A stretch of 64,000 nt of DNA, from positions 1 to 64,000 of the forward strand of contig JAIOPN010000014.1 in the NCBI GenBank assembly GCA_021413865.1. Direction: 5' to 3'. The notes below the pieces were generated by a model. That model searched no databases. It was not told the DNA's origin and saw nothing but the letters and a program-made list of their open reading frames with translations. A program made the position numbers and the translations under genes. The stretch is from Planctomycetota bacterium. GTDB taxonomy: Bacteria; Planctomycetota; Phycisphaerae; Phycisphaerales; Phycisphaeraceae. Every line of letters begins with the position of its first letter. Within the stretch, counting starts at the first letter, position 1. This document shows positions 37,718 to 53,921 of the stretch, piece after piece.

Positions 37718-38113
37718 ATGCTCCGAAAGATGCTCCGAGCCAAGATCCACCGCGCGGTCGTGACGCAGTGCGACCCGGACTACGTCGGGTCGATCACCAT
37801 CGATGCGGACCTGCTCCGCGCGGTGGACATCCGCCCAAACGAGGCTGTGCACGTCGCCGACATCGACAACGCGGAGCGGTTCGAGACTTACGTCATCCGG
37901 GGCGAGCCGGGCTCGGGGATCATCGGCGTCAACGGCGCCGCCGCCAGCCTCGTCAAGCCGGGCCACCGCCTGATCATCATGTGCTACGGCTTCATGCAGG
38001 AGCGCGAGCTGGACGCCCACGAGTCGCGCATCGTCGTCGCCGGCGCGGGCAACAAGATCGAGCGCGAGCTGCGCTACCCGAGCCTGATCGACGAGCTCGA
38101 ACCGACGCGGTGA
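37718..38113 (+). CDS. panD: Aspartate 1-decarboxylase precursor
   Basis: A 131-residue pyruvoyl enzyme that makes beta-alanine for pantothenate and CoA. The self-cleavage site is G24-S25 in DYVGSITIDADLL; the Ser becomes the pyruvoyl group. MLRKMLRAKIHRAVVT and NGAAASLVKPGHRLIIMCYGFM are typical. Length is normal. It stands alone, just right of the transposon, and ends at its own terminator. Confidence 0.96.
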   Translation: MLRKMLRAKIHRAVVTQCDPDYVGSITIDADLLRAVDIRPNEAVHVADIDNAERFETYVIRGEPGSGIIGVNGAAASLVKPGHRLIIMCYGFMQERELDAHESRIVVAGAGNKIERELRYPSLIDELEPTR

Positions 38114-38126
38114 CTCGGACGCCTCC

Positions 38127-38155
38127 AAAGCCCAGGCATGGCATGCCCGGGCTTT
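38127..38155 (+). terminator. Terminator after panD
   Basis: AAAGCCC-A-GGCAT (38127-38139) pairs with ATGCC-C-GGGCTTT (38143-38155), one mismatch and a three-base loop. It resembles the hairpin at 12404. Confidence 0.7.
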
Positions 38156-38196
38156 CCGCGATCAACGAAGCCTCCCCTCTCCGTTAGAATCCACCC

Positions 38197-39849
38197 GTGG
38201 CTAAATCCGTCCGTGTCAGCCTCGCGAACAAGTGCCTCCTGCTGTTCGGGGCCGCGGTGGTGCTGATCCTCTCCTCCGCCCTGGCGGTGGTGTGGGTGCG
38301 CATGCAGGTCCTGGTCACCGAGGGCCAGGAGGAGACCGCCCGCAAGCTGGCCAACGCCTGGCTCTCCGACATGATCCAGCTCGGCGGGGCGCTCACGCCC
38401 GTGGAGGAGCTGCACGGCAACTCCATGTCCAAGCAGAACAACCTCTCGATGACGCTCATCGAGAAGGACGAGTTCGAGATCGCCGAACGCCGCGAGCCCT
38501 TCCTTGCCGACGCGATCGAGCAGTTCACCTCCCGCAACGACAGGCCCGACGACTACTCCCGCCTTGAAAGCCGCACCGGCGGCGCGGGGCTTTACTGGTA
38601 CGCCCGCGCCATCCGCAAGTCGGACCTCTCACGCATCCGCGGCGGCGCGGCCGGCGGGTTCCTCCCCACCCTCGACACACCCTCCCTGGCGGACCCGCTC
38701 GAAATGGTCCTGGTCATCCGCCTCCGCTCCGACCGCGTGGCGCAGCAGCTCACCCTCAACCGCATCTACATCATCGCCGCCGGCCTGCTCGCCGGGTTCC
38801 TGGCGATCGGCGTCTTCTGGTTCATCACCACACGACTCATCCTCTCGCCCGTCCGCGTCCTCCGCGACACCGCCGAGAAGGTCTCCGAGGGCGACATCAA
38901 CATCCGCGCCGACGTCAACACCGGCGACGAGTTCGAGCAGCTCTCCCACATGTTCAACCACATGCTCGAAACCCTCCAGAGCAACCAGGACCAGCTCCGG
39001 GGCATCAACAAGAGCCTGGACCTCAAGCTCGGCGAGCTGGCGGAGACCAACGTCGCCCTCTACGAGGCCAACAAGATCAAGGGGGAGTTCCTCGCCAACG
39101 TCTCGCACGAGCTGCGCACCCCGCTCAACTCCGTGATCGGTTTCGCGGAGATCCTCGAGGAGACGCTCAAGGACCGCACCGGCCCGGTGGACGAGAAGCG
39201 CAAGCGCTACATCGCCAACATCGTCACCTCCAGCCGACGGCTGCTCGACCTGATCAACGACCTGCTGGACCTGGCCAAGATCGACGCCGGCCGCATGGAC
39301 CTGGTGGTCAACCCCATGAACGTCGCCGACACCGCCGAGGGGCTGATCAACCTCATCCGTCCACAGGCCGAGAAAAGCAAGATCGAGCTGCGCCTCAGGG
39401 TCGATCCCAACATCCCGCTCGTGCAGACCGACGCGGGCAAGTTCCAGCAGATCATCTTCAACTTCCTCTCCAACGCCGTGAAGTTCACGCCCCCCGGCGG
39501 CACCGTCACGCTCACGGGCAGCGTCACGCCCGCCAACGCGCAGACCAACACCCCGGCGCGGCTGCGCGTCGGCGTCGCCGACACCGGCCCGGGCATCGCC
39601 AAGGCGGATCACGAGCGCATCTTCGACAAGTTCACCCAGCTCGACTCCACCGTCACCAAGGAGCACGCGGGCACCGGCCTGGGGCTGACCATCAGCCGCG
39701 AGCTGGCGAGCCTGCTGCAGGGGCGGATCGAACTGGAAAGCGACACCGGCCGCGGCGCGACGTTCACGCTGGTGATCCCGCTCGTGCTTGAGGCGCGCAC
39801 GACGCCGCTCATGCCGAACCCGGCACAGGCGCAGACGATGCGGTCGTGA
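38197..39849 (+). CDS. Membrane sensor histidine kinase (HAMP-HisKA-HATPase)
   Basis: A 550-residue kinase. Membrane helices at about 10-35 and 188-212 bracket a periplasmic sensor domain of about 150 residues. HAMP at about 213-265 (LSPVRVLRDTAEKVSEGDINIRADVNTGDEFEQL), then a coiled coil, HisKA with phosphoacceptor H304 in SHELRTPLN, and the ATPase domain with N (FNFLSNAVKFTP), DTGPGIA, and GTGLGLTI boxes. No receiver domain and no adjacent regulator, so an orphan kinase. The start is GTG 38197, six nt after TAGAAT. Confidence 0.94.
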   Translation: MAKSVRVSLANKCLLLFGAAVVLILSSALAVVWVRMQVLVTEGQEETARKLANAWLSDMIQLGGALTPVEELHGNSMSKQNNLSMTLIEKDEFEIAERREPFLADAIEQFTSRNDRPDDYSRLESRTGGAGLYWYARAIRKSDLSRIRGGAAGGFLPTLDTPSLADPLEMVLVIRLRSDRVAQQLTLNRIYIIAAGLLAGFLAIGVFWFITTRLILSPVRVLRDTAEKVSEGDINIRADVNTGDEFEQLSHMFNHMLETLQSNQDQLRGINKSLDLKLGELAETNVALYEANKIKGEFLANVSHELRTPLNSVIGFAEILEETLKDRTGPVDEKRKRYIANIVTSSRRLLDLINDLLDLAKIDAGRMDLVVNPMNVADTAEGLINLIRPQAEKSKIELRLRVDPNIPLVQTDAGKFQQIIFNFLSNAVKFTPPGGTVTLTGSVTPANAQTNTPARLRVGVADTGPGIAKADHERIFDKFTQLDSTVTKEHAGTGLGLTISRELASLLQGRIELESDTGRGATFTLVIPLVLEARTTPLMPNPAQAQTMRS

Positions 39850-39913
39850 TAAATTTTGATTGTGCTGATGCCGTTTAGCGCCGCCCCCAAACGGGGCGGG
39901 CTTCTGTGTCCGG

Positions 39914-40051
39914 CCCCTCTCCCTCGGGAGAGGGTGGCGGCGTCTTCGCCGACGGGTGAGGGGACCTACGGCCGGAAGGGTCGTGCACAATCACATCGAC
40001 CACGCTGCCGGTGATCCCCTCACCCCTGCCCTCTCCCGGAGGGAGAGGGGG
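39914..40051. repeat. Repeat family F, complete copy (138 bp)
   Basis: Starts with hairpin CCCCTCTCCCTCGGGAGAGG and ends with hairpin CCCTCTCCCGGAGGGAGAGG. Between them GGTGAGGGGACCT and TGATCCCCTCACCC are inverted. It is a nested palindrome with no coding capacity, like a miniature mobile element. The second copy at 34831 is split by a transposon. It lies between convergent genes. Confidence 0.88.
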
Positions 40052-40059
40052 TAAATCGC

Positions 40060-40755
40060 TCAGTTCTTCGCCAGTTCCGTCTCGATCGCTTTGACGACTT
40101 CCGGTGCGTCCGGCGCGGTCTTGGGGCTGAACCGCGCGACGACCTCGCCCTTGCGGTTGAGGAGGAACTTCTCGAAGTTCCAGGTAATGTCGCCGCCCTT
40201 CTTACCGATGGCGTCCTGCTCGGTGAGGTACTTGTAGAGTGGGTGCTTGTCCTCGCCCTTGACGGAGATCTTGGAGAACATGTCGAACTTCACGCCGTAG
40301 TTGGTCGTGCAGAACGTCTTGATCTCCGCCTCGCTGCCGGGCTCCTGGGCGCCGAAGTTGTTGGCGGGGAAGCCCAGGACCTTGAGGCCCTTGGCGCCGA
40401 ACTTTTCGTTGAGCCCCTCGAGGCCCTTGTACTGCGGGGTCAGGCCGCACTTGCTGGCGACGTTGACCATGAGGACGACCTTGCCCTGGTAGTCGGCGAG
40501 GTTGACGGGCTTGCCTTCGATGTTCTTGACGGTGAAGTTGAGTGCTGGGGGCACGGTGTGTTTCTCCTGAGAAGGGGTTTGGGCGGGTTGAGTCTGGGCT
40601 GCCTTGTCCTGCGGAGCTTCGCAACAGCCACATTCGGGCTCGGCGGTATCGGTCTTGGCGGGCTGCGTGGCGGGCGCGTCGGCGAAGAGTACGCCCGTCG
40701 AAAACCCAAGGGTGATCGCGAGTGATGCGGCGGCTATGGTGAATTGTTTTTGCAT
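40060..40755 (-). CDS. Exported glutathione peroxidase-family protein
   Basis: A 231-residue thiol peroxidase with a signal peptide (residues 1-25) and a Cys-containing linker (ECGCCEAPQDK, 41-51). The peroxidase domain covers 70-231, with catalytic Cys C103 (NVASKCGLTPQY), Q137 (FPANNFGAQEPGS) and W192-N193 (WNFEKFLL). It uses Cys, not selenocysteine. It should reduce peroxides in the periplasm, probably with thioredoxin-like partners. The last gene of a four-gene minus-strand run (EVE, SirB1-like, DUF3467, GPx). Confidence 0.93.
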   Translation of the reverse strand: MQKQFTIAAASLAITLGFSTGVLFADAPATQPAKTDTAEPECGCCEAPQDKAAQTQPAQTPSQEKHTVPPALNFTVKNIEGKPVNLADYQGKVVLMVNVASKCGLTPQYKGLEGLNEKFGAKGLKVLGFPANNFGAQEPGSEAEIKTFCTTNYGVKFDMFSKISVKGEDKHPLYKYLTEQDAIGKKGGDITWNFEKFLLNRKGEVVARFSPKTAPDAPEVVKAIETELAKN

Positions 40756-40774
40756 GGTTCGCTCGCGTAGTGGT

Positions 40775-41491
40775 TTATCCGTGCGGCTCGTCGGAGTTGG
40801 GGGTCTGAGGCGGCGGCACGGGCGGGGCGATGTCCTGCGGGGGCGTTTGCCCGGGGGTCTGACCCGGCTGGTTCTGCCGCGCCACGAGCCTGCGCTGGTA
40901 TTCGTTGAAGGTGTGGACCATGGATTCCAGCACGCGGGGGATGTGCGGGGCGGAGAGGAAGACGCGCGACGAGACCGCTGAGCGCGGGAAGAAGCCGGTG
41001 ATGAAGTCGAAACAGAACTCGGCGGGCGTGTGGCCGATCATGACGGCGTTGGCGTAGGAGCCCGAGAGCACGTCGTCGGGGATCTTCAGGTCGTCGTAAA
41101 CCTCCTGGATGCTCGGCCTCCGCTCGTTGTCGGGCTTGGGGAGTTGGGGGATGGGGCCGAACTTCTCGGTGAACTTGTTCGCGTTGTCCCGCAGCGCGCC
41201 GATCATCTGCGGCATGACGGCCGGGGGCACGATGATGCGCGCGGCGACCTGGTAGGGCCGGGACATGCGGCAGAGGAAGTCGAGGACGAACTCGGTCGGG
41301 TTGGTGAGGATGATCAGGCCGGTGCTGAACACGCCGCGCACGACGTTGTCGGGCACGCGGGCGCTGAGCGGCTGGTGCCGGAACTCGCCGCTGATGTAGC
41401 CCGAGTCGAACCCGCCCTTGGGATCGGAACCGAGGGGCATGGATGGATCGCCGGGGTTGGTCATGGTGGGGTGAACCCGAGGAAGAGACAT
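40775..41491 (-). CDS. Protein with two DUF3467 domains
   Basis: A 238-residue protein. Two copies of the DUF3467 pattern are visible: STGLIILTNPTEFVLDFLCRMS...ARIIVPPAVMPQMIGALRDN (about 57-105) and YANAVMIGHTPAEFCFDFITGFFPRSAVSSRVFLSAPHIPRVLESMVHTFNEY (about 145-198). The family is usually a single domain of about 100 residues and of unknown function. A Pro/Gln-rich tail (QTPGQTPPQDIAPPVPPPQTP) follows. ATG 41464 is an alternative start. It is 19 bases from the GPx gene. Confidence 0.8.
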   Translation of the reverse strand: MSLPRVHPTMTNPGDPSMPLGSDPKGGFDSGYISGEFRHQPLSARVPDNVVRGVFSTGLIILTNPTEFVLDFLCRMSRPYQVAARIIVPPAVMPQMIGALRDNANKFTEKFGPIPQLPKPDNERRPSIQEVYDDLKIPDDVLSGSYANAVMIGHTPAEFCFDFITGFFPRSAVSSRVFLSAPHIPRVLESMVHTFNEYQRRLVARQNQPGQTPGQTPPQDIAPPVPPPQTPNSDEPHG

Positions 41492-41503
41492 CGTACCACC
41501 ATC

Positions 41504-41525
41504 TGGTGGGGCGGGCGTCCCGCCA
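41504..41525. repeat. Half-unit of repeat family A
   Basis: A single short palindrome GGGCGGGCGTCCCGCC in the 38-base gap between two minus-strand genes. Confidence 0.6.
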
Positions 41526-41529
41526 CGTC

Positions 41530-42216
41530 TTAGATGTGCCCCTCAAGCACGTAGCGCAGCTCGAGCATCGCCGCGACGTCGCGCTCCTCGCCCTGCTGCT
41601 CGAAGACGCCCTGGAGGTTGCCGAGCATCCTCGCCAGCCACTGCCGGTGCGTGGCGACGGGGAGGAACGACTCATCCATCTTCATCTCGCCGGTGACGCG
41701 CCGGATGCGCTCGAACGCCTCGTCGCGGGAGAGCGACTCGCCCGAGTAGAACGGGTCGATGATCATCCGCTCGTCTTCAAGGTCCACGGCGGCGAGGAAA
41801 TGGCCCGGGGCGTTGAGGCCGTGAACCTTCAGACCAACCTGCTCGGCGACGCACTTGTAGATCAGCGTCAGCGTGATGGGCAGGCCGCGACGGGATTCGA
41901 GCACGGCGGGGATGTAGCTGTTGAACGGGTTGTGGTAGTCCTGTGAGTTCCCGGCGAACTGCTCCTCCTCGAAGAGCACGTCGTGCAGGTGCGCCACCAG
42001 CGCCTGGGGCTGGTTCCCGCGCACCCGGGTGCGCACGCGGTCGGCGAGCCGCGCGACCTTCGTTTCCACCACGGGCGGGTCGATGCCGTCCATCTGGTGC
42101 ATCGACAGGCCGATCGCCGCGCGGAGCAGGCCCCTGGCCGTGTTCACGACCGGCATCTGCGCGGCGAAGTAGGCGTGCGCGTCGGCCTTGCAGTGCTTGG
42201 GTTCGGGGATCGACAT
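41530..42216 (-). CDS. Transglutaminase-like SirB1-family protein
   Basis: A 228-residue protein of the SirB1 N-terminal (transglutaminase-like) family. Typical segments: LVAHLHDVLFEEEQFAGNSQDYHNPFNSYIPAVLESRRGLPITLTLIYKCVAEQVGLKVHGLNAPGHFLAAV and IIDPFYSGESLSRDEA. The catalytic Cys of true transglutaminases is not obvious, as in most members. ATG 42216 has GGAG upstream. It lies 35 bases after the EVE gene, likely in one operon. Confidence 0.88.
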   Translation of the reverse strand: MSIPEPKHCKADAHAYFAAQMPVVNTARGLLRAAIGLSMHQMDGIDPPVVETKVARLADRVRTRVRGNQPQALVAHLHDVLFEEEQFAGNSQDYHNPFNSYIPAVLESRRGLPITLTLIYKCVAEQVGLKVHGLNAPGHFLAAVDLEDERMIIDPFYSGESLSRDEAFERIRRVTGEMKMDESFLPVATHRQWLARMLGNLQGVFEQQGEERDVAAMLELRYVLEGHI

Positions 42217-42251
42217 TCCCGCTCCAGCCGGCTTAATAACCCGCGGCGATT

Positions 42252-42737
42252 CTACCGGACCTTGCCCCGTGTGTTGCCCCGTGCGAGGCCGGTGACGATA
42301 CGGAATTCCTCCTCCGTCACGGGCTGGATCGAGAGCCGCTGCCCGCGCCGCAGCACCTGCATCCCCTCCAGCCCCGGGGTCGTCCGCAGCGTCTCCAGCG
42401 CGACGACCTTGGCAAACTTCTCGACGAACTCGAAATCCACCGCCAGCCAGATCGGGTCCTGCTTGGTGGATTTGGGGTCGTGGTGGTCGTCCTTGGGGTC
42501 CAGCGCCGTCGGATCGGGCCGGGCCGCGCCGCACACCCGCGCGACGCCCACGACGCCCGTCGGTTCGGCGCTGGAGTGGTAAAACAGCGCCGTGTCGCCG
42601 ACCTTCATGCCGTCACGCATGAAGTTCCTCGCCTGGTAGTTCCTCACGCCCGTCCATGCGGTGCGCTTGTCGCGCTTCAGGTCGTCGATTGAGTAGCTCG
42701 TGGGCTCGGTTTTGATCAACCAGTGTTGCTGGGGCAT
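42252..42737 (-). CDS. EVE-domain protein
   Basis: A 161-residue single EVE domain: HWLIKTEPTSYSIDDLKRD at the start, WTGVRNYQARNFMRDGMKVGDTALFYHSSAEPTGVVGVARV, WLAVDFEFVEKF and the closing LSIQPVTEEEFRIV. EVE domains are PUA-like and in several bacteria bind modified bases in nucleic acids. The start at 42737 begins the family consensus MPQQHWLIKTEP. It is divergent from the multi-VanZ gene. Confidence 0.93.
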   Translation of the reverse strand: MPQQHWLIKTEPTSYSIDDLKRDKRTAWTGVRNYQARNFMRDGMKVGDTALFYHSSAEPTGVVGVARVCGAARPDPTALDPKDDHHDPKSTKQDPIWLAVDFEFVEKFAKVVALETLRTTPGLEGMQVLRRGQRLSIQPVTEEEFRIVTGLARGNTRGKVR

Positions 42738-42869
42738 CGGGCTGCTCCGCGCGGGGCCTTGCCGCGCGCTCCGGGGTATCATGTCGCTCCAACGGCGGCG
42801 GCGCGGCACCGGGGAGATTACCACACCCCACTCTGCCGGTCGTCCGCGGTCAACAGGGCGGCGGTATTC

Positions 42870-45800
42870 ATGTCTATTCTCTCGACCCTCTCAATCCACC
42901 CATCGCCCCCGGCGGTGAGCCTTTTCTTCTGCATCGACGAGGCGCAGGTCCTCGTGGCGATGGCGCTGATGGGCGTCACCTGCGGGCTGATCGCGCGCTG
43001 GGGGCCCCAGCGGCAGACGCTCATCCGCTGGGTCGTCCCGGCATTCCTGATGACGACGCTCGTCGCGGCGATGCTGATCGTCAGCGCGCTCGACCCCCTG
43101 TCACGCCGCCTCATCGGCCAGCAGCCCGCCTCGGCGCTGCACATCACGGTGCCCGCCTTCCTGCACCTGGCGGCCATGCTCATGGTCTTCGTTCCGCTGC
43201 TGGCGCTCTGCTGCACGATGGCCGACGGGTTCAAGCTCTACGGCAAGCGCGACACGCTCGCCACGCAGTTGCCACGCATGCTCCTGCCGGTGGCGGGGTG
43301 CGTCCTGCTCGGCTGGCTGGGGATGACGCTGGGCGACCTGAAGGGCCCCGTGAGGGCGTCGGTCGATCGCGCCTCGGGCGTGCTCATCTCCTGGCCGTGG
43401 ATCGCGCTGATGCTGTTGACCGCGCTGCACACGGCCTGGCTGATGCGCGCGATGGCGAACCGGGGGCTGTCGCGCGTGGCGAGCCTGCTCATCCTCATCA
43501 TGCCGACGATCGTGGTCGTGCTTCTGGGTTACGCGCTCTTTGTCCGCGCCGCGGGGGACGGCGAGCAGCGCGGCCAGCCCGCGGCGCACGAGCTGCTCGG
43601 GGCGACCCCGGGGGAGATCATGCCCCAGGGTGTGGTGCTGCTGCGTTGGACGCTCTCGTACATCGCCGCCGTCACCGCGATGGCGGTGGGCGGCGTGGTC
43701 GGCCTGCGCACGGCCCCCAGGCCATCGTCCACCCGCATCTCCCGCATCGTCATCGAGCAGTCGGAGTGGAACGCCCCCACGCCGGCCACGCCCCCCGCGG
43801 CGCAAGCCGACCCGGCGCAGGGGGAGGGAACACCGGCCGGCCAGGACGCCGTGCAGGCCGCGCTCCTGTCTTCGCCGCGCCACCGCCGTGCCACGCCGAC
43901 GGTCGATCCGACGCGCGTCCCGCTCTACATGCGGCCGGGGTTCCACGTCGTCCTCTGGCACGCCCTGGCGGCGTGGATACTGCTCTACCCCTTCAATTTC
44001 CGTGACACGGCGCACGGCGCCTTCCTCGCCGATCCGATGCACGGCGTGCCGAACTTCGCCGGCAACATCCTGCTCTTCCTGCCCTGCGGCGTCGTGGCGG
44101 GGTGGTGGATGCGGGAACGCCGACGCAGCGTCAGCGTCGTGATGCTCTTCGCCCTGGCCCTGGGCGCGGCGGTGAGCCTCTTGGGCGAGGGACTCCAGCT
44201 CTGGCTTCCCGAGCGGCTTAGCTCGTCATTCGACCTGGTCGCCAACGCGGCGGGCTCCGCCATCGGCGCGGCCTTAGCGTGGCGCGGGTGCGAGCGGTGG
44301 GAGCGCAAACGCAGGCGGCTGGTGGCGTGGCTGGACGTGCGCACCGCCTCACGCCACGCGGGCTGGGCCATCATCGCCGTCACGGCGCTCTGGCTGGCGC
44401 CCTTCGACTTCTCCCCCGAGTTGTCCGACCTGCGCCGGGGCTGGGAGCGCGCCCTCAACGCCGGCGCCCCGCTGCATGAGACGATCCATTGGATGCAGAA
44501 CGGCGGGGCCTTCCAGGGTGTTGAGCACGAGTGGGTCTGGCAGGTGTTGCCGTCGGTGGCGATCTTCACGCTCCTGGCGGTCATGCTCGGCCGCGCGATC
44601 CGCGGCAGCTTCGAGCGCCGCGGCGACTGGACGTCCCCGGTCTTCTTCATCCTGATGCTCGGCGGGACGATGGCGGCGGTGCTGGAACTGCTCCAGTGGC
44701 TCGTGCTCAGCCGGACGATGGACGCGACGGGCCTTGTGTCGAGCCTGACGGGTGTGGTGCTCGGCGCCTTGATCGATCTGCTGATGGGGCCGGTCTATCC
44801 GCACGGCTGGTCGCCCTCGCAGGGATATCCGGGGGCGCCGGCAGAACCCACGGAACACCCCCCCGCACCCTCTCGCGCTGACCTTTCCCACACGTCAGAG
44901 CCGCAACCGGCAGAAATACCCGAACGGCCCGCGCAAGAAGAGCCCCCACGCCGCGAGCTGCACGGCGAACCTGCACCCGTAAAAAAAAAAGAACCCCCTC
45001 TGACCGGATCGGGTGACACAACCCAAACGGCGGGTGGCGAGGCCCCCGCGCCCGCGTGGTCGTGGGTGCCGACGCGCTGGGGGGTGGCGGGCTGCGTGCT
45101 GCTGGCGGTGCTCGGGAGCGTGGCCGTGCGGCTGCCGGGCGTGCCGTACAACTGGCCCAAGCTGGTGCGCGGCCCGATGGGCGGCGCGTTCGCCATGCTG
45201 GGGATCACGCTGTCGCTGCTCGTGCTCGGCGGTGCTCCGGCGGCGGCGGCGCGGTGGATGCGATGGAGCGGAGCCGGCGCACGCTGGTGGGGCGCTTGGA
45301 TCACCGGCACGGCGGCGGGCGCGGCGATCATCCTCATCGCCACCACGCCGGACGTGATGGTCGCCAAGATCACCGGCGCGCCGGTCTGGGGGTTGGCGTA
45401 CTACCTCGAATCATTCCTGCGACTGACGGGCCTGCTTCTGGGCCCGGTGGCGGCGCTGACGGCGGCCACCACGCTCTGGGACCGCGCCGTCACCGGCGGG
45501 GATGAAGACGGCCGCCGCCCTTTTGGCCTGGCGCTCTGGACGATCGCCGCGGCACTGGCCTGCCGGACCGTCGTGGTGACGTGGGCCTGCACCGACAACA
45601 TCACCGAACTGCTCGCCGGCGGCGGCGACCCGGCGAACGGGCTGACGGTCGCATGGCCGGGGGAAATGTGGCTCGCGCTCACGATCGCGCTGCTGACGGC
45701 CAACGCGACGCTCGTGGCCGTGCTGGCGGCGCGGCGGCGCATCGGCCCGGTGATCGCCGTTGCCGTAGCGACCCTGCCCGCAGCCGTCGTCGGGTTCCTG

Positions 45801-47336
45801 ATGTTCAACCTCGGCACGGTGCACTCCTTCCACAAATACGACGTGACGTTCTCGGCCGCGCAGTTTCTCCTGGGGGCAAACCGATCCGCCCGGCTGAGCG
45901 ACGCGTCACTGCTCGCGCGGTGGTGCGTGCTGTACTACGGCGTGGTCACGGTGCTGGCCTTCGCCGGCACGCTGGGGTATCGCTCGATCCGCGGCGACAC
46001 AAGGCGCGAGGGCGCGGCGGAAACAACCACGGGCACAGCGGGGTTGGTCGTGTTGGCGGTGGTGTTCAGCGGCCTGCTCATCTACGGCTCGCTCGTGCCG
46101 CTGGCGCTGCGGCCCATGCCGCTCGCCTCGGCGGTCGAAAAATTCAACACCATCATGCAATTCAGCCGGATCGGGGCGAGCGACCGTTACGACTGGGTGA
46201 CCAACGCGCTCCTCTTCGGCGCGGCGGCGTTTCTCTGGATGGCGGCGCTGGCCGGTGAGCGGTGGAGCGCGGCCGGGCTGCTGCTGGCCGGCGCGGCGGC
46301 GTGGACCGGCGTGGTCGTCATGGGCACGCTGCTGGAGTTCATGCAGCTCTTCACCGCCGACCGCATCACCAGCCCCGGTGACGTGGCGGCGCAGGCGGTC
46401 GGCGCGGCGGCTGCGATCGGGCTTTTCGCCCTGTTCGGCCGGTCGTGGACCGCCCCGCTGCGGCGGCTCATCGCACACCAGGCGCGCGACCCGTTGAGCG
46501 ACGTGCTCCTGCTCTATCTGGCCGGTTACGTGCTCTACGCCGTCATGCCGCTCGACCTGGCCGTGAGCGCGACGGAGCTGCGCTCCAAATGGGACGGCGG
46601 GCTGATCGTGCTGCGCCCGTTTGGTTTTCAGTGGAAATCTGCGGGCGAGGCGGCGTGGGTGCTGGGCGGCGACGTGCTGCTGGCCATCCCGGTCGGCGCG
46701 CTGCTGGGGCGCTGGTTCCGCGTCGCGACGGGACGCCCGCTGCTGATCGGTCTGGCGATCCTGGCCGGGATCGAGCTGTCGCATCTGCCGCCGATGTCGC
46801 GCGTGGTGGACGTGACGCACATCCTCATGGGCATGATCGGCGTGGCGCTGGGCGTGGCAGCGGCGAGGAAACGCAAAGAATGGTGGCTCGGCCGGCCGAC
46901 GGGCTGGTACCGCGCGGCGGCGGCGGTGTACGCCCTGGCGCTATGGGTCGGCTACACAGCACCGTGGAACTTCAGCGCGTCGGCCTACTCGGCGGGCAAC
47001 ATCCGCGACCACCTGCTGGTCATCCCCTTCACTGGGCTACACGCCGGCTCCTCGTGGGTGGCACTGGACCAGATTCTCCGCAAGACACTGCTCGGGCTGC
47101 CGCTGGGTCTTTTGATCGCGCAGGCCGACCACAACGCCGGCCGGCGCCGCCGCCTCCAGCCGATCGGCCTCGCGGCCTGCGCCTGCTGGATGTTGCTCAT
47201 CGAATCCGCCCAGCTCGGCATCGCCGACCGCGTCGCTGATTCCACCGACGCCTTCCTGGGCACGCTCGGCGTGGCTGGCGGGATGCTCGTGGCGCGGCTG
47301 GTCAACGACACCGACGCGGCCCGCGACGCCGCGTGA
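42870..47336 (+). CDS. Giant multi-pass membrane protein with about five VanZ-like units
   Basis: A 1488-residue membrane protein. VanZ-like units appear at about residues 370-480 (LYPFNFRD ... NFAGNILLFLPCGVV ... EGLQLWLPERLSSSFDLVANAAGSAIG), 505-640, 1065-1190 (LVPLALRP ... TNALLFGAAAF ... EFMQLFTADRITSPGDVAAQAVGA), 1210-1330 and 1360-1484 (PWNFSASAYSAGNIRDHLL ... ESAQLGIADRVADSTDAFLGTLG). The N-terminal 330 residues and residues 720-1060 hold further helices. A Pro/Glu-rich linker at about 655-720 contains Lys codons on an A10 run (44987-44996). VanZ is linked to teicoplanin resistance, mechanism unknown; five units in one chain is unusual. Confidence 0.85.
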   Translation: MSILSTLSIHPSPPAVSLFFCIDEAQVLVAMALMGVTCGLIARWGPQRQTLIRWVVPAFLMTTLVAAMLIVSALDPLSRRLIGQQPASALHITVPAFLHLAAMLMVFVPLLALCCTMADGFKLYGKRDTLATQLPRMLLPVAGCVLLGWLGMTLGDLKGPVRASVDRASGVLISWPWIALMLLTALHTAWLMRAMANRGLSRVASLLILIMPTIVVVLLGYALFVRAAGDGEQRGQPAAHELLGATPGEIMPQGVVLLRWTLSYIAAVTAMAVGGVVGLRTAPRPSSTRISRIVIEQSEWNAPTPATPPAAQADPAQGEGTPAGQDAVQAALLSSPRHRRATPTVDPTRVPLYMRPGFHVVLWHALAAWILLYPFNFRDTAHGAFLADPMHGVPNFAGNILLFLPCGVVAGWWMRERRRSVSVVMLFALALGAAVSLLGEGLQLWLPERLSSSFDLVANAAGSAIGAALAWRGCERWERKRRRLVAWLDVRTASRHAGWAIIAVTALWLAPFDFSPELSDLRRGWERALNAGAPLHETIHWMQNGGAFQGVEHEWVWQVLPSVAIFTLLAVMLGRAIRGSFERRGDWTSPVFFILMLGGTMAAVLELLQWLVLSRTMDATGLVSSLTGVVLGALIDLLMGPVYPHGWSPSQGYPGAPAEPTEHPPAPSRADLSHTSEPQPAEIPERPAQEEPPRRELHGEPAPVKKKEPPLTGSGDTTQTAGGEAPAPAWSWVPTRWGVAGCVLLAVLGSVAVRLPGVPYNWPKLVRGPMGGAFAMLGITLSLLVLGGAPAAAARWMRWSGAGARWWGAWITGTAAGAAIILIATTPDVMVAKITGAPVWGLAYYLESFLRLTGLLLGPVAALTAATTLWDRAVTGGDEDGRRPFGLALWTIAAALACRTVVVTWACTDNITELLAGGGDPANGLTVAWPGEMWLALTIALLTANATLVAVLAARRRIGPVIAVAVATLPAAVVGFLMFNLGTVHSFHKYDVTFSAAQFLLGANRSARLSDASLLARWCVLYYGVVTVLAFAGTLGYRSIRGDTRREGAAETTTGTAGLVVLAVVFSGLLIYGSLVPLALRPMPLASAVEKFNTIMQFSRIGASDRYDWVTNALLFGAAAFLWMAALAGERWSAAGLLLAGAAAWTGVVVMGTLLEFMQLFTADRITSPGDVAAQAVGAAAAIGLFALFGRSWTAPLRRLIAHQARDPLSDVLLLYLAGYVLYAVMPLDLAVSATELRSKWDGGLIVLRPFGFQWKSAGEAAWVLGGDVLLAIPVGALLGRWFRVATGRPLLIGLAILAGIELSHLPPMSRVVDVTHILMGMIGVALGVAAARKRKEWWLGRPTGWYRAAAAVYALALWVGYTAPWNFSASAYSAGNIRDHLLVIPFTGLHAGSSWVALDQILRKTLLGLPLGLLIAQADHNAGRRRRLQPIGLAACACWMLLIESAQLGIADRVADSTDAFLGTLGVAGGMLVARLVNDTDAARDAA

Positions 47337-47360
47337 GCGGGCCCTCCTTACAATGCCCGC

Positions 47361-48188
47361 ATGACCGCACCCCGCAAGCCCGCCGACAGGCACCCGAAAA
47401 AGCCCCACGCCGCCACCACCGACTGGTCCGCCGTCGCGGCGTGGTACGACAACCTCGTGGGCGAGGAGGGCAGCGAGTACCAGCGCGAGGTCGTGCTGCC
47501 GGGCGTGCTGCGGCTGCTGGCCTGCCGTGCGGGGGAGCGCGTGCTGGACGTCGCCTGCGGGCAGGGCGTGCTCTGCCGGCTGCTGCACGCGGCGGGGGTG
47601 AAGGTCACAGGCGTGGACGCGGCCGAGCCGTTGATCAAGCTGGCCCGCGAGCGCAGCGACAAGGCGGTGCGATATTCCGTCGGCGATGCGCGATCGCTCG
47701 GTGCCCTGCCCGCCCTGACGCCCGGTTTCGATGCCGCCGCCTGCGTGCTGGCGATCCAGAACATCGACCCGATGAAGCCGGTCTTCGAGGGCGTGGCGAA
47801 ACTCCTACGGCCCGGAGGGCGGTTCGTGATGGCGATGATGCACCCCTGCTTCCGCGGGCCCAAGCAGACGCACTGGGGCTGGGACGAGAGCAAGGGTGTG
47901 CAGTACCGCCGCGTGGACCGCTACCTGCTGCCGCGCCGCGAGCCGATCGTCACCCACCCGGGCAAGGACCCGACGGGCTACACCTGGACGTTCCACCGCC
48001 CGGTGCAGTCGTACGCGGCCGCGCTGGGTGAGTCGGGCCTGCTCATCGACCGCATCGAGGAGTGGACGAGCCACAAGGTAAGCACAAGCGGCCCGCGCGC
48101 CGGGGCGGAGAACCGGACGCGGAAAGAGATACCGATGTTCATGGCGATACGGGCGGTGAAGGCGAGTTTGGACGAGCCGCGACCGTAA
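47361..48188 (+). CDS. Class I SAM-dependent methyltransferase
   Basis: A 275-residue methyltransferase with the UbiE/COQ5-type fold: motif I ERVLDVACGQGVLCRLL (about 58-74), VTGVDAAEPLIKLAR, RYSVGDARSL, and RPGGRFVMAMMHPCF. The substrate is unknown. The last six codons, encoding DEPRP and the TAA stop, lie within a REP arm, so the natural C-terminus was replaced by repeat insertion. TACAAT lies six nt before ATG 47361; no ribosome-binding site. Confidence 0.88.
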   Translation: MTAPRKPADRHPKKPHAATTDWSAVAAWYDNLVGEEGSEYQREVVLPGVLRLLACRAGERVLDVACGQGVLCRLLHAAGVKVTGVDAAEPLIKLARERSDKAVRYSVGDARSLGALPALTPGFDAAACVLAIQNIDPMKPVFEGVAKLLRPGGRFVMAMMHPCFRGPKQTHWGWDESKGVQYRRVDRYLLPRREPIVTHPGKDPTGYTWTFHRPVQSYAAALGESGLLIDRIEEWTSHKVSTSGPRAGAENRTRKEIPMFMAIRAVKASLDEPRP

Positions 48189-48255
48189 GGGAGCGGTTCT
48201 GTGACGACCGTAGTTGCCGGAAAGGCCGCTCCCTTACGGTCGCGGCTCGTCCAGA
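48167..48255. repeat. REPIN-like element, family B (RAYT-linked)
   Basis: Arms 48167-48200 and 48222-48255 (core GACGAGCCGCGACCGTAAGG). The T-to-A variant CCGTAAGG is shared with the left end of the valS insertion. The left arm overlaps the 3' end of the methyltransferase gene and supplies its stop codon. Confidence 0.9.
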
Positions 48256-48280
48256 GCTGGTCGCAGATTGCTGGAGAACC

Positions 48281-48796
48281 TCACGCCCGCAGGCGTTCGG
48301 CCATGCGTTCGAAATAGCGTAGCGCGTTGAGTTCACGCCGGATGTCGCGCAGCGCGGCGGCGCGGGTTTCACCGCCCTGCCCCCCCGCTTTGATGAACAG
48401 TTCCCCTACCGCTTTGAGCCTTGCGCCGCGCTCTGCCTCCACCCAGCGCGTCAGCTCATCGACCGCCGCGTGGTCCCCCTCCGCCAGCACCTCGTCCATG
48501 CGCTCGCGGACCTCCATCACCTCAAGCAGGAAGCCCTCCGGGAGCTCCTTGTCGTCACCGATGGCGGGGCCGCCCATCACGGCCAGCAGGGCGTTGGCAC
48601 GCGACTCGGGGTCGCGCAGGGCGCGGTAGGCCTCGTTCACAACCGCCGACCGCTCGGCGGCGTCCGCCTGGTCCAGTGCGTCGGTGTAGCGATCCGGGTG
48701 GTGATCGGAGGAGAGGCGGATGAACCGCTTGTGCAGATCGGCCTCGTCGAGGTCGAACCGCGCAGGGAGGCCGAGGGTTTCAAAGGGATTGCCCAC
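48281..48796 (-). CDS. hscB: Fe-S cluster co-chaperone HscB-like J-domain protein
   Basis: A 171-residue protein. A J domain at residues 1-75 with HPD at H33-P34-D35 (LSSDHHPDRY) is followed by the HscB C-terminal helical domain (PEGFLLEVMEVRERMDEVLAEGDHAAVDEL...LNALRYFERM). HscB delivers the IscU scaffold to HscA during iron-sulfur cluster transfer. No isc genes are adjacent. A short protein of standard length. Confidence 0.9.
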   Translation of the reverse strand: MGNPFETLGLPARFDLDEADLHKRFIRLSSDHHPDRYTDALDQADAAERSAVVNEAYRALRDPESRANALLAVMGGPAIGDDKELPEGFLLEVMEVRERMDEVLAEGDHAAVDELTRWVEAERGARLKAVGELFIKAGGQGGETRAAALRDIRRELNALRYFERMAERLRA

Positions 48797-48859
48797 CGGG
48801 ACATGGTATCGTGGCGTGGCGCCACGAGGCCGGACACATCACGCCACTGGATTCACCCC

Positions 48860-49756
48860 ATGAACACGCTCACCGTCATCGCCGACGACCAGAACCTCTG
48901 CGGCGAGGGCCCGCTCTGGGACCCCGCCGGCCAACGGCTGATCTGGAACGACATGACCCGCACGCTGCTCTACGACTACACCCCGGCGACGCGCGAGAAG
49001 CGTGTCATCGGGCGCGACCTCATGATCGCCGCCGCCGCGCTGAACAAGGGCGGCACGCTCGTCGTTGCCGGGGCTACGGGGCTTTATGTGTGGAAGGGCG
49101 ACAAGGAGCACTCGCTCATCGCCGACAAGCACGGGGGAGAGACGCTCTACTTCAACGACATCCTCGCCGACCCGCGCGGGCGTGTTTACGCGGGCACCGT
49201 CTATTGGGGCGCCAAGGGGATGGAGAAAACCGGCAAGCTCTACCTCTTCGAGCCCGACGGCTCGGCGCGCGTGCTCGACGAGGGTATCGAACTGGCGAAC
49301 GGCCTGGGGCTGTCGCCGGACAACCGCACGCTCTACTTCACCGACTCCGCCGCGCGGCGCGTCTACGCCTACCGCGTTGACCAAAAAACCGGCACGCTCT
49401 CCGACAAACGGGTCTTCGTGCAGGTCCCGCGCGGCGAGGGGCTGCCCGACGGCCTGACCGTAGATGCACAGGGGTATGTATGGTCCGCGCAGTGGTGGGG
49501 CTCGCAGGTTGTGCGCTACAGCCCGGAAGGGAAAGTCGATCGCCGCATCGAGATGCCGGTGCGGCAGGTATCGAGCGTGGCCTTCGGCGGGAAGGAGTAC
49601 GCGGACCTCTATATCACCAGCGCGGCGGAGAATTTCGAGAGCGAGTTGGCCCCGCCGGGGTATGACTACAAGGCGACCAATATCGGCGGCGCGCTCTACC
49701 ACACGGTGCCGGGGGTGAAGGGGAAAGCGGAGTTTGTCGCGGGGTTTGGGAAGTAA
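48860..49756 (+). CDS. SMP-30/gluconolactonase family protein
   Basis: A 298-residue six-bladed beta-propeller lactonase. Metal-site motifs: E16 in GEGPLWDP, the mid-protein Asn of ELANGLGLSPDNRTLYFTDS, and Asp in LPDGLTVDAQGYVWSAQWWG. Members hydrolyse sugar lactones such as gluconolactone. No signal peptide. ATG 48860 starts the family consensus; the longer frame from 48470 overlaps hscB. A strong terminator follows. Confidence 0.92.
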   Translation: MNTLTVIADDQNLCGEGPLWDPAGQRLIWNDMTRTLLYDYTPATREKRVIGRDLMIAAAALNKGGTLVVAGATGLYVWKGDKEHSLIADKHGGETLYFNDILADPRGRVYAGTVYWGAKGMEKTGKLYLFEPDGSARVLDEGIELANGLGLSPDNRTLYFTDSAARRVYAYRVDQKTGTLSDKRVFVQVPRGEGLPDGLTVDAQGYVWSAQWWGSQVVRYSPEGKVDRRIEMPVRQVSSVAFGGKEYADLYITSAAENFESELAPPGYDYKATNIGGALYHTVPGVKGKAEFVAGFGK

Positions 49757-49770
49757 GAAGAGGGAACGAT

Positions 49771-49818
49771 AAGCCGCGAGCGGCCGGCCGCTCGCGGCTT
49801 TGCGATCTTCCTTTTTTT
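49771..49818. terminator. Terminator between the SMP-30 gene and recN (repeat family G palindrome)
   Basis: A perfect 15-bp inverted repeat, 49771-49785 with 49786-49800 (AAGCCGCGAGCGGCC and its complement), then GCGATCTTCC and seven T's. The arms are family G units joined head to head. Confidence 0.75.
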
Positions 49819-49820
49819 GA

Positions 49821-51632
49821 TCACCCCACCGACGCGAGCATTTCCCCGACCTGCTTCCGCGTCGTGGCCGTCACCGACTTGCCCGCGAGCATCTCGGCCA
49901 GCTCCTCGATCCGCGCGTCCCCCTCCAGGAGCGTCACCGTGGTGCGCGTCTGCTTCTCCTTGCCTTTGCCCTCGACGCTCTTGGCGATGCGCAGGTGGCG
50001 ATCGGCGTAGGCGGCGATCTGCGGCAGGTGGGTGATGCAGATGACCTGCTGGCCCGGCGCGGGGGACGCGGCGGTTTTCGTGGATGCACCCCCGTTGGAT
50101 CGCTTGCCCTTCGTGCCGGTTTTTTCGCCCTGCGCCGGCGTGGAGGCGAGGCGTCGCAGCTTGTCGCCGATGACGGTGCCCATCCGGCCGCCGATGTTGG
50201 CGTCGATCTCGTCGAAGACCAGCACGCTGATGCGGTCGCTCTGGGCGAGGATGGATTTGAGGGCGAGCATGATGCGGGACATCTCACCGCCCGAGGCGAT
50301 CTTGCGGAGCGGCCGCGCGGGCTGGCCGGGGTTGGTGCGCACCAGCATCTCGACAGTCTCCAGCCCGGACGCCGACGCGCCGGCCCCCTCCTCCGTGACC
50401 ACCACGGGGACGAACTCGACCTCAAAGCCCGCTTCCGTCATGCCCAGCTCGCGCATCTGCGCCTCAACCAGCGGCCGGAGCTTCGCCGCCGCGGCACGCC
50501 TCGCCTTCGATAATTCCGCGCCGGCCTTTTCCATCTCGGCCCGCGCCGCGGCGATGTCTATCTCAATACGGTCGGAGCTCTCGTCCTCCCCCCGCAACTC
50601 CGCGATCTGCCCGCCCAGCTCGGCGCGGAAGGCGAGCAGCTTGGCGGTCAGGTCGTCGCCGACGGGCAGGTGCGAGGCGTACTTGGAGGCGAGGCGGTTG
50701 AGCGTGTTGAGCCGATCGTTGATCTCGACGAGTTCGGCGGGGTCAAGGTCCACCTTCTCGACGTAACGCCCCAGCTCAAACGCGGCGTCCTGCAACACGG
50801 CGGTGCCGTTTTTCACCTGGTCGCAGATCGCCGCCAGCGCGGGGTCGAGCTCAGCCAACCCGCCGAGGATGTGGACGATCATCTGCAGCCGTTCGACGAC
50901 CGAACCGTCGCTGTCGTAGAGCGCGGTCTGCGCCTGGCCCGCGTCGCGTTTCACCTTCTCCAGGTTCGACAGCAGCGCGTTGCGCTGCCGCAGCTCCTCG
51001 AACTCCCCCTCCACCGGGCGGGCCTCGTCGATCTCGTTGGCCTGGAACTCGTAGAGATCGAGCTGCTGGCGGCGGAGCCGGCTGGAGGATTTGAGTTCGT
51101 CGTGCCGGCGGACCAGGTCGCGCAGCCGGCCGTGGGCGTCGGCGAAGCGCCCGCGCACGTCGGTGCAGCGGGCGAAGGCGTCGAGGATGGAGAGCTGGTT
51201 CGCGGGCTTGAGGAGGTACTGGTGGTCGTGTTGGCCGTGGATGTCGACGAGCAATTCGCCGATGGCGCGGACCATGGGCGAGGTGGCGGGCCGGCCGTTG
51301 ACGTTCACGCTGGACCGTCCGGAGGCGAGGTAGCGGCGGGTGATGAGCAGTTGCTCGCCGGGGGCGAAGGCGTCGTCGAGGATGGCGGCGACGGCGGCCG
51401 CGGCGGCGGGGTCGTGCACCTCGAAGAGGCCGGCGATGCGGGCCTCGTCCGCGCCGGGGCGAATCATGTCCGCCGCCCCGCCGCTCCTGAGGCCCAGCAG
51501 GACTTCAAACGCGCCGAGCACGAGGCTCTTGCCCGCGCCGGTTTGGCCGGTGAAGCAGTTGAGGCCCGGCCCGAGCTCGACGGTGACGTCCTCGATGACG
51601 GCCAGGTTGGAGATGTGCAGTTCGCGGAGCAC
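49821..51632 (-). CDS. recN: DNA repair protein RecN
   Basis: A 603-residue SMC-like ATPase for double-strand break repair. Walker A FTGQTGAGKS (28-37), a coiled coil between about 155 and 370, the ABC signature LRKIASGGEMSRIMLALK (about 442-459), Walker B VLVFDEIDANIGG, and the His switch CITHLPQIAAYADRHLRI. An insert of about 30 residues rich in Lys/Thr/Gly (PAQGEKTGTKGKRSNGGASTK) follows Walker B, longer than in E. coli RecN. The start ATG 51632 gives the family MLRELHISNLAVIEDV. Confidence 0.96.
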   Translation of the reverse strand: MLRELHISNLAVIEDVTVELGPGLNCFTGQTGAGKSLVLGAFEVLLGLRSGGAADMIRPGADEARIAGLFEVHDPAAAAAVAAILDDAFAPGEQLLITRRYLASGRSSVNVNGRPATSPMVRAIGELLVDIHGQHDHQYLLKPANQLSILDAFARCTDVRGRFADAHGRLRDLVRRHDELKSSSRLRRQQLDLYEFQANEIDEARPVEGEFEELRQRNALLSNLEKVKRDAGQAQTALYDSDGSVVERLQMIVHILGGLAELDPALAAICDQVKNGTAVLQDAAFELGRYVEKVDLDPAELVEINDRLNTLNRLASKYASHLPVGDDLTAKLLAFRAELGGQIAELRGEDESSDRIEIDIAAARAEMEKAGAELSKARRAAAAKLRPLVEAQMRELGMTEAGFEVEFVPVVVTEEGAGASASGLETVEMLVRTNPGQPARPLRKIASGGEMSRIMLALKSILAQSDRISVLVFDEIDANIGGRMGTVIGDKLRRLASTPAQGEKTGTKGKRSNGGASTKTAASPAPGQQVICITHLPQIAAYADRHLRIAKSVEGKGKEKQTRTTVTLLEGDARIEELAEMLAGKSVTATTRKQVGEMLASVG

Positions 51633-51779
51633 GGGGAATCTCGGGTCGCGGGGCGTGCGCGTAATCTAACACGAACCGCGGAAGCGCAGAGTTGTATGAC
51701 GCGATTAGCGGGTGCCCCGGAGGGGCCCTCCGGGCCTCCCGCTAAACAGCGGAGGAAATGTTGGACCAAAACCCGCGAA

Positions 51780-51863
51780 TGCCCGGGACAGGAGTCGAAC
51801 CTGCAAGGGTGTGAGCCCACCGCCACCTCAAAGCGGCGCGTCTGCCAATTCCGCCACCCGGGC
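51780..51863 (-). tRNA. tRNA-Leu (anticodon GAG)
   Basis: The complement folds as a type II tRNA: acceptor stem GCCCGGG/CCCGGGC, D arm GCGGAATTGGCAGACGC, anticodon stem CCGCT/GGCGG with loop TTGAGGT (anticodon GAG), a long variable arm (GTGGGCTCACAC), and T arm with GGTTCGACTCC. The discriminator is A; CCA is not encoded. GAG reads CUC and CUU leucine codons. Confidence 0.95.
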
Positions 51864-51881
51864 GAAGAATCGAGCCGGGGA

Positions 51882-52451
51882 TTATACAGGTCTTGCGGCC
51901 CCGTCGCCATCGCGGGGTGCGGAGGCCGTCGGAGGGCCGTCCGAGGGGGTGCCGACGAGTGAGGCAACGGTCACTGTTGCCGGCACCGCGGCCCCGCACT
52001 CGGGGCAGGAGGCCGTGGTGATGGAGCGCAGGTTGTAGCCGCAGGTCGTGCAATGGCCGCGGATTTTTTTCTTCGCCTCGATGCGTCGCCACTCCCAGAA
52101 AAAGAAGGACCCTGCGGCCGGCAGGATGATCGCCCAAAGAGGCACGTCAAAACGCCCGGAACCAAGACCGCTATCAAGGTAAAAGCCCAGAAATTGCGAG
52201 GGCACATGCGGGTCGACGTTTTCACCACTGTAGAGCTTCGGAAACCCCGATCGCATTCCGGAGAAATGCCCCCAGCCGAAACGGATATGTCCCGGTTCGT
52301 TGCTGATGGACATCCAACGATGTGAACCGGTTCCCCAGGAAATGCCTTCGTCATACGAATATCCGCGCCCCCAGAGGATCGTGAACCAGAGGGCGACGAA
52401 GAGCGAGGCCATCGAGGCCGTGCGGCGGAGCCTGATCCCCAGATAGTCCAT
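51882..52451 (-). CDS. Membrane protein with C-terminal zinc ribbon
   Basis: A 189-residue protein with membrane segments at about 13-30 and 103-120. A zinc ribbon follows (HCTTCGYNLRSITTASCPECGAAVP, about 133-157) of the type CxxCGYxLR...CPECG that is common in planctomycetes. The tail is Pro/Ala/Asp-rich. Function unknown. It lies beside the tRNA gene, separated by 18 bases. Confidence 0.75.
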   Translation of the reverse strand: MDYLGIRLRRTASMASLFVALWFTILWGRGYSYDEGISWGTGSHRWMSISNEPGHIRFGWGHFSGMRSGFPKLYSGENVDPHVPSQFLGFYLDSGLGSGRFDVPLWAIILPAAGSFFFWEWRRIEAKKKIRGHCTTCGYNLRSITTASCPECGAAVPATVTVASLVGTPSDGPPTASAPRDGDGAARPV

Positions 52452-52553
52452 GGTGGGGTTCCCGGGCGGGTGGCGTGAGAGGTGATGCCACGGCGGATTC
52501 CAGCTATATTACGCGGCTCGCTCGGCCCGGGTTCACGTTGAGGAGGTCGCCCC

Positions 52554-53885
52554 ATGGGCGTGAAGGTCGCGAAATTCGGCGGAACATCCCTCGCGGACGC
52601 CGCACAGGTCCGCAAGGTCGAAGCCATCATCCGCGCCGACCCGGCGCGGCGGTTCGTCGTCCCCTCCGCCCCCGGCAAGCGCACGAGCGACGACCGCAAG
52701 ATCACCGACCTGCTTTACCTCTGCCACGCCTCGGCGGCGCAGCAGGTGCCCTTCGACGAGACCTGGAAGCTCATCAGCGACCGCTACTTGCAGATCGCCG
52801 CGGACCTGAAGATCAAGCTGGACATGCGGCCGCACCTGGACGAGGTGAAGAAGAAGATCGCCGCCGAGGGCGCGCGGGCCGGGGGGACGGCCGACTACGC
52901 CGCCAGCCGGGGCGAATACCTCAACAGCCTGATCGTCGCCGAGCTGCTCGGCTACGAGTTCATCGACGCGGCGGAGGTGATCTTCTTCGATGCCCGGGGC
53001 CTCTTCGACGCCGAGCGGACGCAGCAGGCGCTCAGCGCCCGGCTGGCGAAATCCACCCGCGCGGTGGTGCCCGGCTTCTACGGCACGGACCACGCGGGGC
53101 GGGTGAAGACCTTCTCACGCGGCGGGTCGGACATCACCGGCGCGATCGTCGCGCGGGCGGCCTTCGCCGAGGTGTACGAGAACTGGACGGACGTGTCCGG
53201 CCTGCTGATGGCGGACCCGCGCATCGTGAAGAACCCCAGGCCCATCGACGTCGTAACCTACCGCGAGCTGCGCGAGCTGGCGTACATGGGCGCGACCGTG
53301 CTGCACGACGAGGCGATCTTCCCCGTCCGCATCGCGGGCATCCCCGTCAACATCCGCAACACCAACCGGCCCGACGACAAGGGCACGATGATCGTCGCCA
53401 ACACCGCGCCGATCGCGCACACCGGCTCGATCACCGGCATCGCGGGGCGGAAGGACTTCACCGTCATCACCGTCGAGAAGGCGCTGATGAACCAGGAGGT
53501 CGGCTTCGGCCGACGAATGCTCAGCGTGCTGGAGGTCAACGGCATCAGCTTCGAGCACATGCCCAGCGGCATCGACACCATGAGCGTGGTGGTCGCCGAC
53601 AAGGCGATCGAGGGCCGGCTGGACAAAGTGCTCGACGAGCTGCGCGCCGAGTGCAAACCCGACGCGATCGACGTCGAGCCGCACATGGCGCTGGTCGCCA
53701 CGGTGGGCCGGGGCATGGCCTCCACCCCCGGCATGGCGGCGCGGCTCTTCGGCGCGCTGGCGGCGGCGCAGGTGAACGTCCGCATGATCGACCAGGGGTC
53801 GAGCGAGATCAACATTATCGTCGGCGTGGGCACGAAGGATTTCGAGAACGCCATGCGTGCGGTCTACGAGGCGTTCGTGAAGTAA
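52554..53885 (+). CDS. lysC: Aspartate kinase
   Basis: A 443-residue monofunctional aspartokinase, the first step to lysine, threonine and methionine. Catalytic domain: KFGGTSLADA (7-16), FYGTDHAGRVKTFSRGGSDITGAIVA, and DVSGLLMADPRIVKNP. Two ACT domains follow (about 300-440: ITVEKALMNQEVGFGRRMLSVLEVNGISFEHMPSGIDTMSVVV and ALVATVGRGMASTPGMAARLFGALAAAQVNVRMIDQGSSEINI), so feedback inhibition is expected. GAGGAGG precedes ATG 52554. A transporter gene follows 36 bases downstream. Confidence 0.96.
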   Translation: MGVKVAKFGGTSLADAAQVRKVEAIIRADPARRFVVPSAPGKRTSDDRKITDLLYLCHASAAQQVPFDETWKLISDRYLQIAADLKIKLDMRPHLDEVKKKIAAEGARAGGTADYAASRGEYLNSLIVAELLGYEFIDAAEVIFFDARGLFDAERTQQALSARLAKSTRAVVPGFYGTDHAGRVKTFSRGGSDITGAIVARAAFAEVYENWTDVSGLLMADPRIVKNPRPIDVVTYRELRELAYMGATVLHDEAIFPVRIAGIPVNIRNTNRPDDKGTMIVANTAPIAHTGSITGIAGRKDFTVITVEKALMNQEVGFGRRMLSVLEVNGISFEHMPSGIDTMSVVVADKAIEGRLDKVLDELRAECKPDAIDVEPHMALVATVGRGMASTPGMAARLFGALAAAQVNVRMIDQGSSEINIIVGVGTKDFENAMRAVYEAFVK

Positions 53886-53921
53886 CGCCGCGCGGGGCAA
53901 CCACGCCCGCGCCGACCCACC

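Follow-up and report, generated by a model that had tools for sequence, protein, structure and literature searches.

The window, the 64,000-nucleotide stretch of planctomycete DNA that we analysed, contains a gene (42870..47336, + strand) for a 1488-residue membrane protein in which two tandem arrays of VanZ units, one of two and one of three, are each preceded by a membrane region (TMA) and are joined by a linker, in the order (TMA1-D1-D2)-linker-(TMA2-T1-T2-T3). The complete set of four active-site residues is confined to the first unit of each array, and the remaining units have lost one or more of them in a fixed order. From sequence comparison we read the protein as probably the product of an unequal internal duplication, (TMA-V-V)-linker-(TMA-V-V-V). 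The function of VanZ has been an open question since its discovery in glycopeptide resistance, and the subfamily described here offers a built-in test of it: a single competent unit, in an array fused to polysaccharide enzymes.

The reading frame runs uninterrupted for 1488 codons from an ATG at 42870 to a stop that ends at 47336; an alternative GTG start at 42723 would give a longer product of 1537 aa. Third-position GC was 0.89-0.96 in 13 of 15 bins (300 bases each) along the gene, the exceptions being the first bin (0.83), which takes in bases 5' of the ATG, and the linker bin starting at 44823 (0.68). The linker itself (44790..45074, +; residues 641-735) parts D2 from the second block and is rich in Pro and Glu, as the initial annotation had described it, containing 22 Pro and 11 Glu among its 95 residues. 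A tandem-repeat search found no tandem DNA repeats and no promoter-like sites were found; terminator-like sites numbered 5, against 2.7 expected, and we drew no conclusion from them. Gene calls made by script followed a simple GC-frame heuristic, with no gene finder.

Pfam VanZ (PF04892) matched the protein over five stretches with 139.8 bits (cut-off 30.1) and was the sole family reported on the 1488 residues, with no Wzy_C domain. The earlier count of about five VanZ-like units is thus borne out, and the match is not confined to the first of them: scored alone, D1 reached 45.4 bits, D2 28.3, T1 33.6, T2 30.9 and T3 43.2, so that four of the five exceed the curated cut-off and D2 falls slightly under it. 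Boundaries taken from an in-house iterated VanZ profile place D1 at 43950..44285 (residues 361-472), D2 at 44364..44777 (residues 499-636), T1 at 46059..46433 (residues 1064-1188), T2 at 46512..46871 (residues 1215-1334) and T3 at 46923..47300 (residues 1352-1477), all on the + strand. The division into blocks of two and three units, also proposed beforehand, is likewise supported. The motifs by which the units had been recognized fit D1 well and the others loosely. ExxQ does recur in D1, D2, T1 and T3, but not in T2, which has ELSH; PFNF and NxLLFLP, said to recur five times with variable conservation, were each found exactly once, in D1, and DxxNxxG is absent, D1 carrying D-x-x-x-N-x-x-G instead.

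VanZ-1 lipocones are characterized by an asparagine in H2, an ExxQ motif in H3 and an aspartate motif in H4, according to the accessible text of PMC12419801. At these four sites the window protein has N, E, Q, D in D1; S, E, Q, G in D2; N, E, Q, D in T1; D, E, H, H in T2; and K, E, Q, D in T3. Only D1 and T1 carry the full set, D2 and T2 being degenerate and T3 partly so. Relatives show the same order: in pair arrays the full set was present in D1 of five of five proteins and in D2 of one of five, and in triple arrays it was present in 42 of 43 T1 units (the remaining one is cut by a contig end), 1 of 43 T2 units and 1 of 42 T3 units. One search pattern for the 42 relatives ([LVM]EF[AM]Q...) held the T1 E and Q, whose conservation is partly selected as a result; we therefore relied on N, on D and on six loci found by profile. 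In these six loci the full set was found in five first units (in the sixth, H replaces N), in no second unit and in no third unit, the third units of L119 and L120 being incompletely aligned in this count. The H3 glutamate is kept even in degenerate units (43 of 43 T2, 40 of 42 T3), suggesting that these may not be inert. The DxDDxxxN motif of H4 is incomplete in both D1 and T1. Each carries S at D-3; D1 still has D and N at D+4, where T1 has Q.

Among 31 genomes (the window's own and 30 relatives), six, own included, matched at E ≤ 0.001, and none of the matches was a second genome of the window's genus. A Phycisphaeraceae MAG (G004) encodes all five units in a single 793-aa frame without TMA (L024); G012 has the two-unit and three-unit parts as adjacent genes; G018 has the pair and triple parts on two separate contigs; G001 has one VanZ unit near a contig end; and G007 has a TMA1 gene only. 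A contig scan with the triple returned 42 loci, 10 from Planctomycetota and 32 from Pseudomonadota (L018, L019 and L021 were left out of one locus step as duplicates of L024, L025 and L028). Exactly three units were counted in 39 of the 42; L028 has three, one of them split by the profile, and the exceptions are L024 with five and L035 with two, at a contig end. The generalization that VanZ nearly always occurs as one lone domain therefore fails for this subfamily, in which triple-VanZ proteins occur across Planctomycetota and Pseudomonadota, including Methylotuvimicrobium buryatense 5G, Methylomonas lenta and Chromatocurvus halotolerans, listed under cultured-strain names.

In a sample of 199 Planctomycetota genomes, the triple profile matched 36, with many matches short and weak; each of the six strongest other genomes had a three-unit array (the third unit of L120 is cut by a contig end). 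With the TMA2 profile, this sample gave a match in no genome other than the window's. G032, from the same family as the window, encodes a TMA1-like region (17.1 bits) followed by three VanZ units in 858 aa. Of the genomes examined, none but the window's own showed the complete double fusion. Two further triple-VanZ proteins have unusual flanks: L118:3788-8038 (+) in G148 carries long N- and C-terminal extensions with no Pfam match, and L121:7162-11400 (+) in G167 has a long acidic repetitive tail and an exosortase nearby. The window's own genome also encodes a pair of VanZ units, the second degenerate, in another protein of 389 residues (contig C9, L074:7638-8804, -), and a VanZ fused to the lipid II flippase MurJ (contig C63, L075:8122-10293, -; 315 bits MurJ, 33.9 VanZ).

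The two membrane regions, each of about 300 residues and one before each block, were absent from the initial annotation. TMA1 (42870..43739, +) has about seven hydrophobic segments, and TMA2 (45063..46037, +) is common to L042, L026, L027, L029, L030 and L040; Pfam gave no match on either, which makes TMA a new candidate partner domain of VanZ. TMA1 relatives in L022 (G007) and L072 (G108) are stand-alone genes. A TMA2 relative precedes the triple VanZ in L042 and follows it in the other five chains, all proteobacterial; fusions of TMA with triple VanZ exist in both orders.

TMA1 and TMA2 are probably related to each other. Initial comparisons were weak (profile-profile E 0.063, probability 0.9%; 12.1 bits), and L022 alone gave no signal against TMA2 (z -0.7; 231 of 300 shuffles equally high). 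The kinship became convincing because L072 served as a bridge and joined the profile: a TMA2-type profile matched L072 over its full length (27.5 bits, i-E 8e-8), and the profile with L072 added matched residues 1-300 of the window protein at 26.2 bits, compared with 22.3 for the best of 887 controls, although block-of-ten shuffles of a profile training member score 20-24 bits, so that the hydropathy pattern explains part of the signal. Aligned directly, residues 1-300 and 731-1057 scored 148, against 300 within-block-of-ten shuffles that averaged 51 and peaked at 104. In the unit tree (129 columns, midpoint rooting, fragments <70 residues excluded), D1 lies beside T1 (support 0.934) and D2 beside T2, the latter weakly (0.66-0.86); duplication of a whole cassette is favoured because of this pairing. 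A blastp of one half against the other gave E 6e-20 without composition correction, and we discounted that statistic. Several candidate TMA relationships were set aside. The idea that TMA conceals two degenerate VanZ units found no similarity in a comparison of profiles (E 0.51); a G014 match to TMA1 reads as transhydrogenase-like; the N-terminus of L120 resembles TMA by eye but reached just 11-14 bits; and polynucleotide phosphorylase matches in a PDB sequence search (E 0.013-0.019) were judged spurious for a membrane domain.

The predicted structure of the second half (757 residues) had a mean pLDDT of 71.7, with values of 80-97 over most of the VanZ units and below 60 over most of TMA; the first-half model averaged 63.0. 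Because confidence is low for TMA in both models (pLDDT mostly under 66), we make no claim about its fold. The VanZ units of the second-half model are helical; a Foldseek search of the PDB, which could have tied them to the four-helix cone fold of lipocones, gave no match at E ≤ 0.001; a PDB sequence search with the triple gave one chance-level match (E 0.66). The H2-H3 loops long enough to count (D2, T1 and T3) contain about 30 K/R per 100 residues, compared with 4-15 K/R per 100 residues in loops on the active-site side. By the positive-inside rule, this distribution of charge suggests that the active sites should face the periplasm.

Genes around the VanZ gene include a transglutaminase-like gene, a glutathione peroxidase and a methyltransferase, among others. 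The last of these, of class I (47361..48188, +), starts 25 bases past the VanZ gene stop and is possibly co-transcribed with it. Eight neighbouring proteins scanned (38197 to 54616) included no exosortase or polysaccharide assembly proteins; the genome's exosortases are on two other contigs (L076:8807-15414 and L077:8531-18739), where each exosortase locus is followed by a protein of about 1480 residues, that of L076 resembling the TPR protein PrsT. Upstream in the window lies a pair of genes for panD and a HAMP histidine kinase (37718..39849, +). The five-VanZ gene of G004 and the lone TMA1 gene of G108 adjoin this pair too; G007 has just the kinase beside its TMA1 gene, with panD at another site. 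The kinase also occurs in G015 and G005, where a hexapeptide acetyltransferase and a PEP-CTERM FemAB protein or glycosyltransferase are nearby. Several genomes of the family conserve the panD-kinase pairing itself (L095, L097, L100 and L102), with kinases that are 57-69% identical; in L097 and L100, polysaccharide genes lie next to the pair. In G018, a DUF2238 protein (L020:2071-2847, -) directly follows the two-VanZ gene; DUF2238 corresponds to the Wok family of lipocones (PMC12419801).

Relatives of the array, in turn, are associated with polysaccharide assembly. A Wzy_C (O-antigen ligase) match was present in 18 of 42 relative chains, and the C-terminal extensions of 24 proteobacterial relatives form one similarity group. 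An exosortase gene was found at L035 and, directly upstream, at L037, L058 and L062; a Wzt-type ABC exporter at L037; the exporter membrane part at L037 and L058; a Wza gene at L034; a separate Wzy_C gene at L050; and EpsI (DUF3485) at L035 and L042. The neighbour list held 139 proteins, of which 87, all proteobacterial, were scanned (planctomycete and some proteobacterial neighbours, the latter mostly short, were omitted, and L032 and L033 were dropped as near copies of L031). These 87 included eight asparagine-synthase-like amidotransferases and three EpsB-type sugar transferases of XrtA systems. Some relatives had no glycan genes in view; one of them, L025, has, as we read it, transport-like genes upstream and a succinate-dehydrogenase-like gene downstream.

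From the observed architecture, unit order and associations, we infer the substrate, the chemistry and the roles of the degenerate units and TMA. On balance we lean towards competent units that act on polyprenyl-linked glycan head groups, with degenerate units as their partners. In such a mechanism, an inner-membrane protein would consist of two unequal copies of a cassette, a TMA partner and then a tandem VanZ array, and the first VanZ unit of each array would keep the lipocone active site at the periplasmic membrane face. There, D1 and T1 may target the phosphate-linked head group of glycans carried on polyprenyl, by transfer or hydrolysis, whereby chains would be lengthened, released or trimmed. 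The degenerate units and TMA might shape the site, bind the carrier or chain, or hold partners. VanZ has been proposed to act on lipid-carrier head groups, itself an inference of the cited authors, and the accessible part of that source gives no demonstrated enzymatic activity for any VanZ domain (PMC12419801). Also weighing against the enzymatic reading are the setting of the window gene outside any polysaccharide cluster, relatives such as L025, the H3 glutamate kept in degenerate units, the partly selected E and Q of T1 and the Foldseek search that yielded no solved structure. For the present proteins, a lipid-carrier substrate is likely because relatives are fused to O-antigen-ligase-like domains and have exosortase, Wza and Wzt neighbours.

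This last point upholds one part of the initial annotation, which took the chain for a scaffold or a multi-unit carrier-binding protein; the other part, equal binding units or a mere scaffold, sits poorly with a full active site in one unit per block. The units could still bind polyprenyl-phosphate head groups, or hold glycan enzymes, without catalysis, a possibility to which we give a minority share of our confidence. Most units per array are degenerate, the Wzy_C enzyme domain present in many relatives could make VanZ the accessory part of the fusion, and teicoplanin binding is reported to fall when VanZ is expressed, independently of any modification of precursors (PMC7146870, available text). 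Scaffolding alone, however, hardly explains why four polar residues are kept in one unit that is always the first of its array, and because they are kept once per block, catalytic units with degenerate partners fit better than equal binders or a scaffold. We regard as improbable a peptidoglycan-side role like that of classic VanZ, acting on lipid II or on antibiotic access to the surface and unrelated to exopolysaccharide. The VanZ-MurJ fusion in the same genome would suit it, as would the change in lipoglycopeptide binding caused by VanZ proteins (PMC7146870, available text), but in this subfamily exosortase, Wza, Wzt and O-antigen-ligase parts are found in or next to the relatives, and the 25 commonest families in the neighbour scan include no peptidoglycan family.

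The double fusion might instead be an artefact or a lineage accident, in which adjacent genes were joined by assembly error or by recent loss of a stop and their linkage would carry no functional meaning. It is known from one draft genome only, third-position GC drops in the linker bin, and G012 has the pair and triple as neighbouring genes. Against this, the frame is open throughout with coding-like composition on both sides of the linker, G004 has D1-D2-T1-T2-T3 in one frame, and a TMA region is joined to the triple in L042 and G032; we consider such an origin very unlikely. Beyond the mechanism of competent units with degenerate partners, we offer a broader conjecture, rather doubtful in its full extent. 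In a widespread but unnamed terminal step of exosortase-linked polysaccharide assembly, the triple VanZ would serve as catalytic core: a pseudo-trimeric lipocone enzyme, with one competent and two fixed degenerate units, that moves or frees the finished chain from its polyprenyl carrier. Its fusion partner would be an O-antigen-ligase-like domain in Pseudomonadota, and TMA in some Planctomycetota and Pseudomonadota; the window protein would be its covalent two-site version.

Duplicated VanZ with an inactive copy, VanZ-flippase fusions and links to polysaccharides have already been published (PMC12419801). We found no papers on triple VanZ or on VanZ with exosortase in a search that left subscription journals mostly uncovered, and the source tables of PMC12419801, which lie outside its accessible text, may already contain entries for triple VanZ or for VanZ fused to a ligase. 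Each of the five units matches the VanZ family model PF04892, and D1 and T1 keep the N, ExxQ and D of the VanZ-1 clade; the window chain differs from that clade in having five units, three of them degenerate, and two extra membrane regions. A close published arrangement is the betaproteobacterial VanZ-1 duplicate with an inactive VanZ-i (PMC12419801, section 20, accessible text), in which the competent copy likewise comes first. That system, however, has two copies in an operon of four genes that includes ferredoxin, lipase and metallo-beta-lactamase-fold genes, whereas here we find arrays of two and three, TMA regions and, in relatives, a polysaccharide context. VanZ-MurJ fusions, one of them in the window's own genome and the type already in print as VanZ-MviN_MATE (PMC12419801), similarly join VanZ to a lipid-carrier protein, but with a single VanZ unit and MurJ as the partner. 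Among the relatives, L024 of G004 has the five units in the same order as the window protein but lacks TMA1, the linker and TMA2. Triple-VanZ proteins of Pseudomonadota with an O-antigen-ligase-like part (L045, L031) share the array and its order of competent and degenerate units, but have a C-terminal Wzy_C-like region in place of TMA and no two-unit block.
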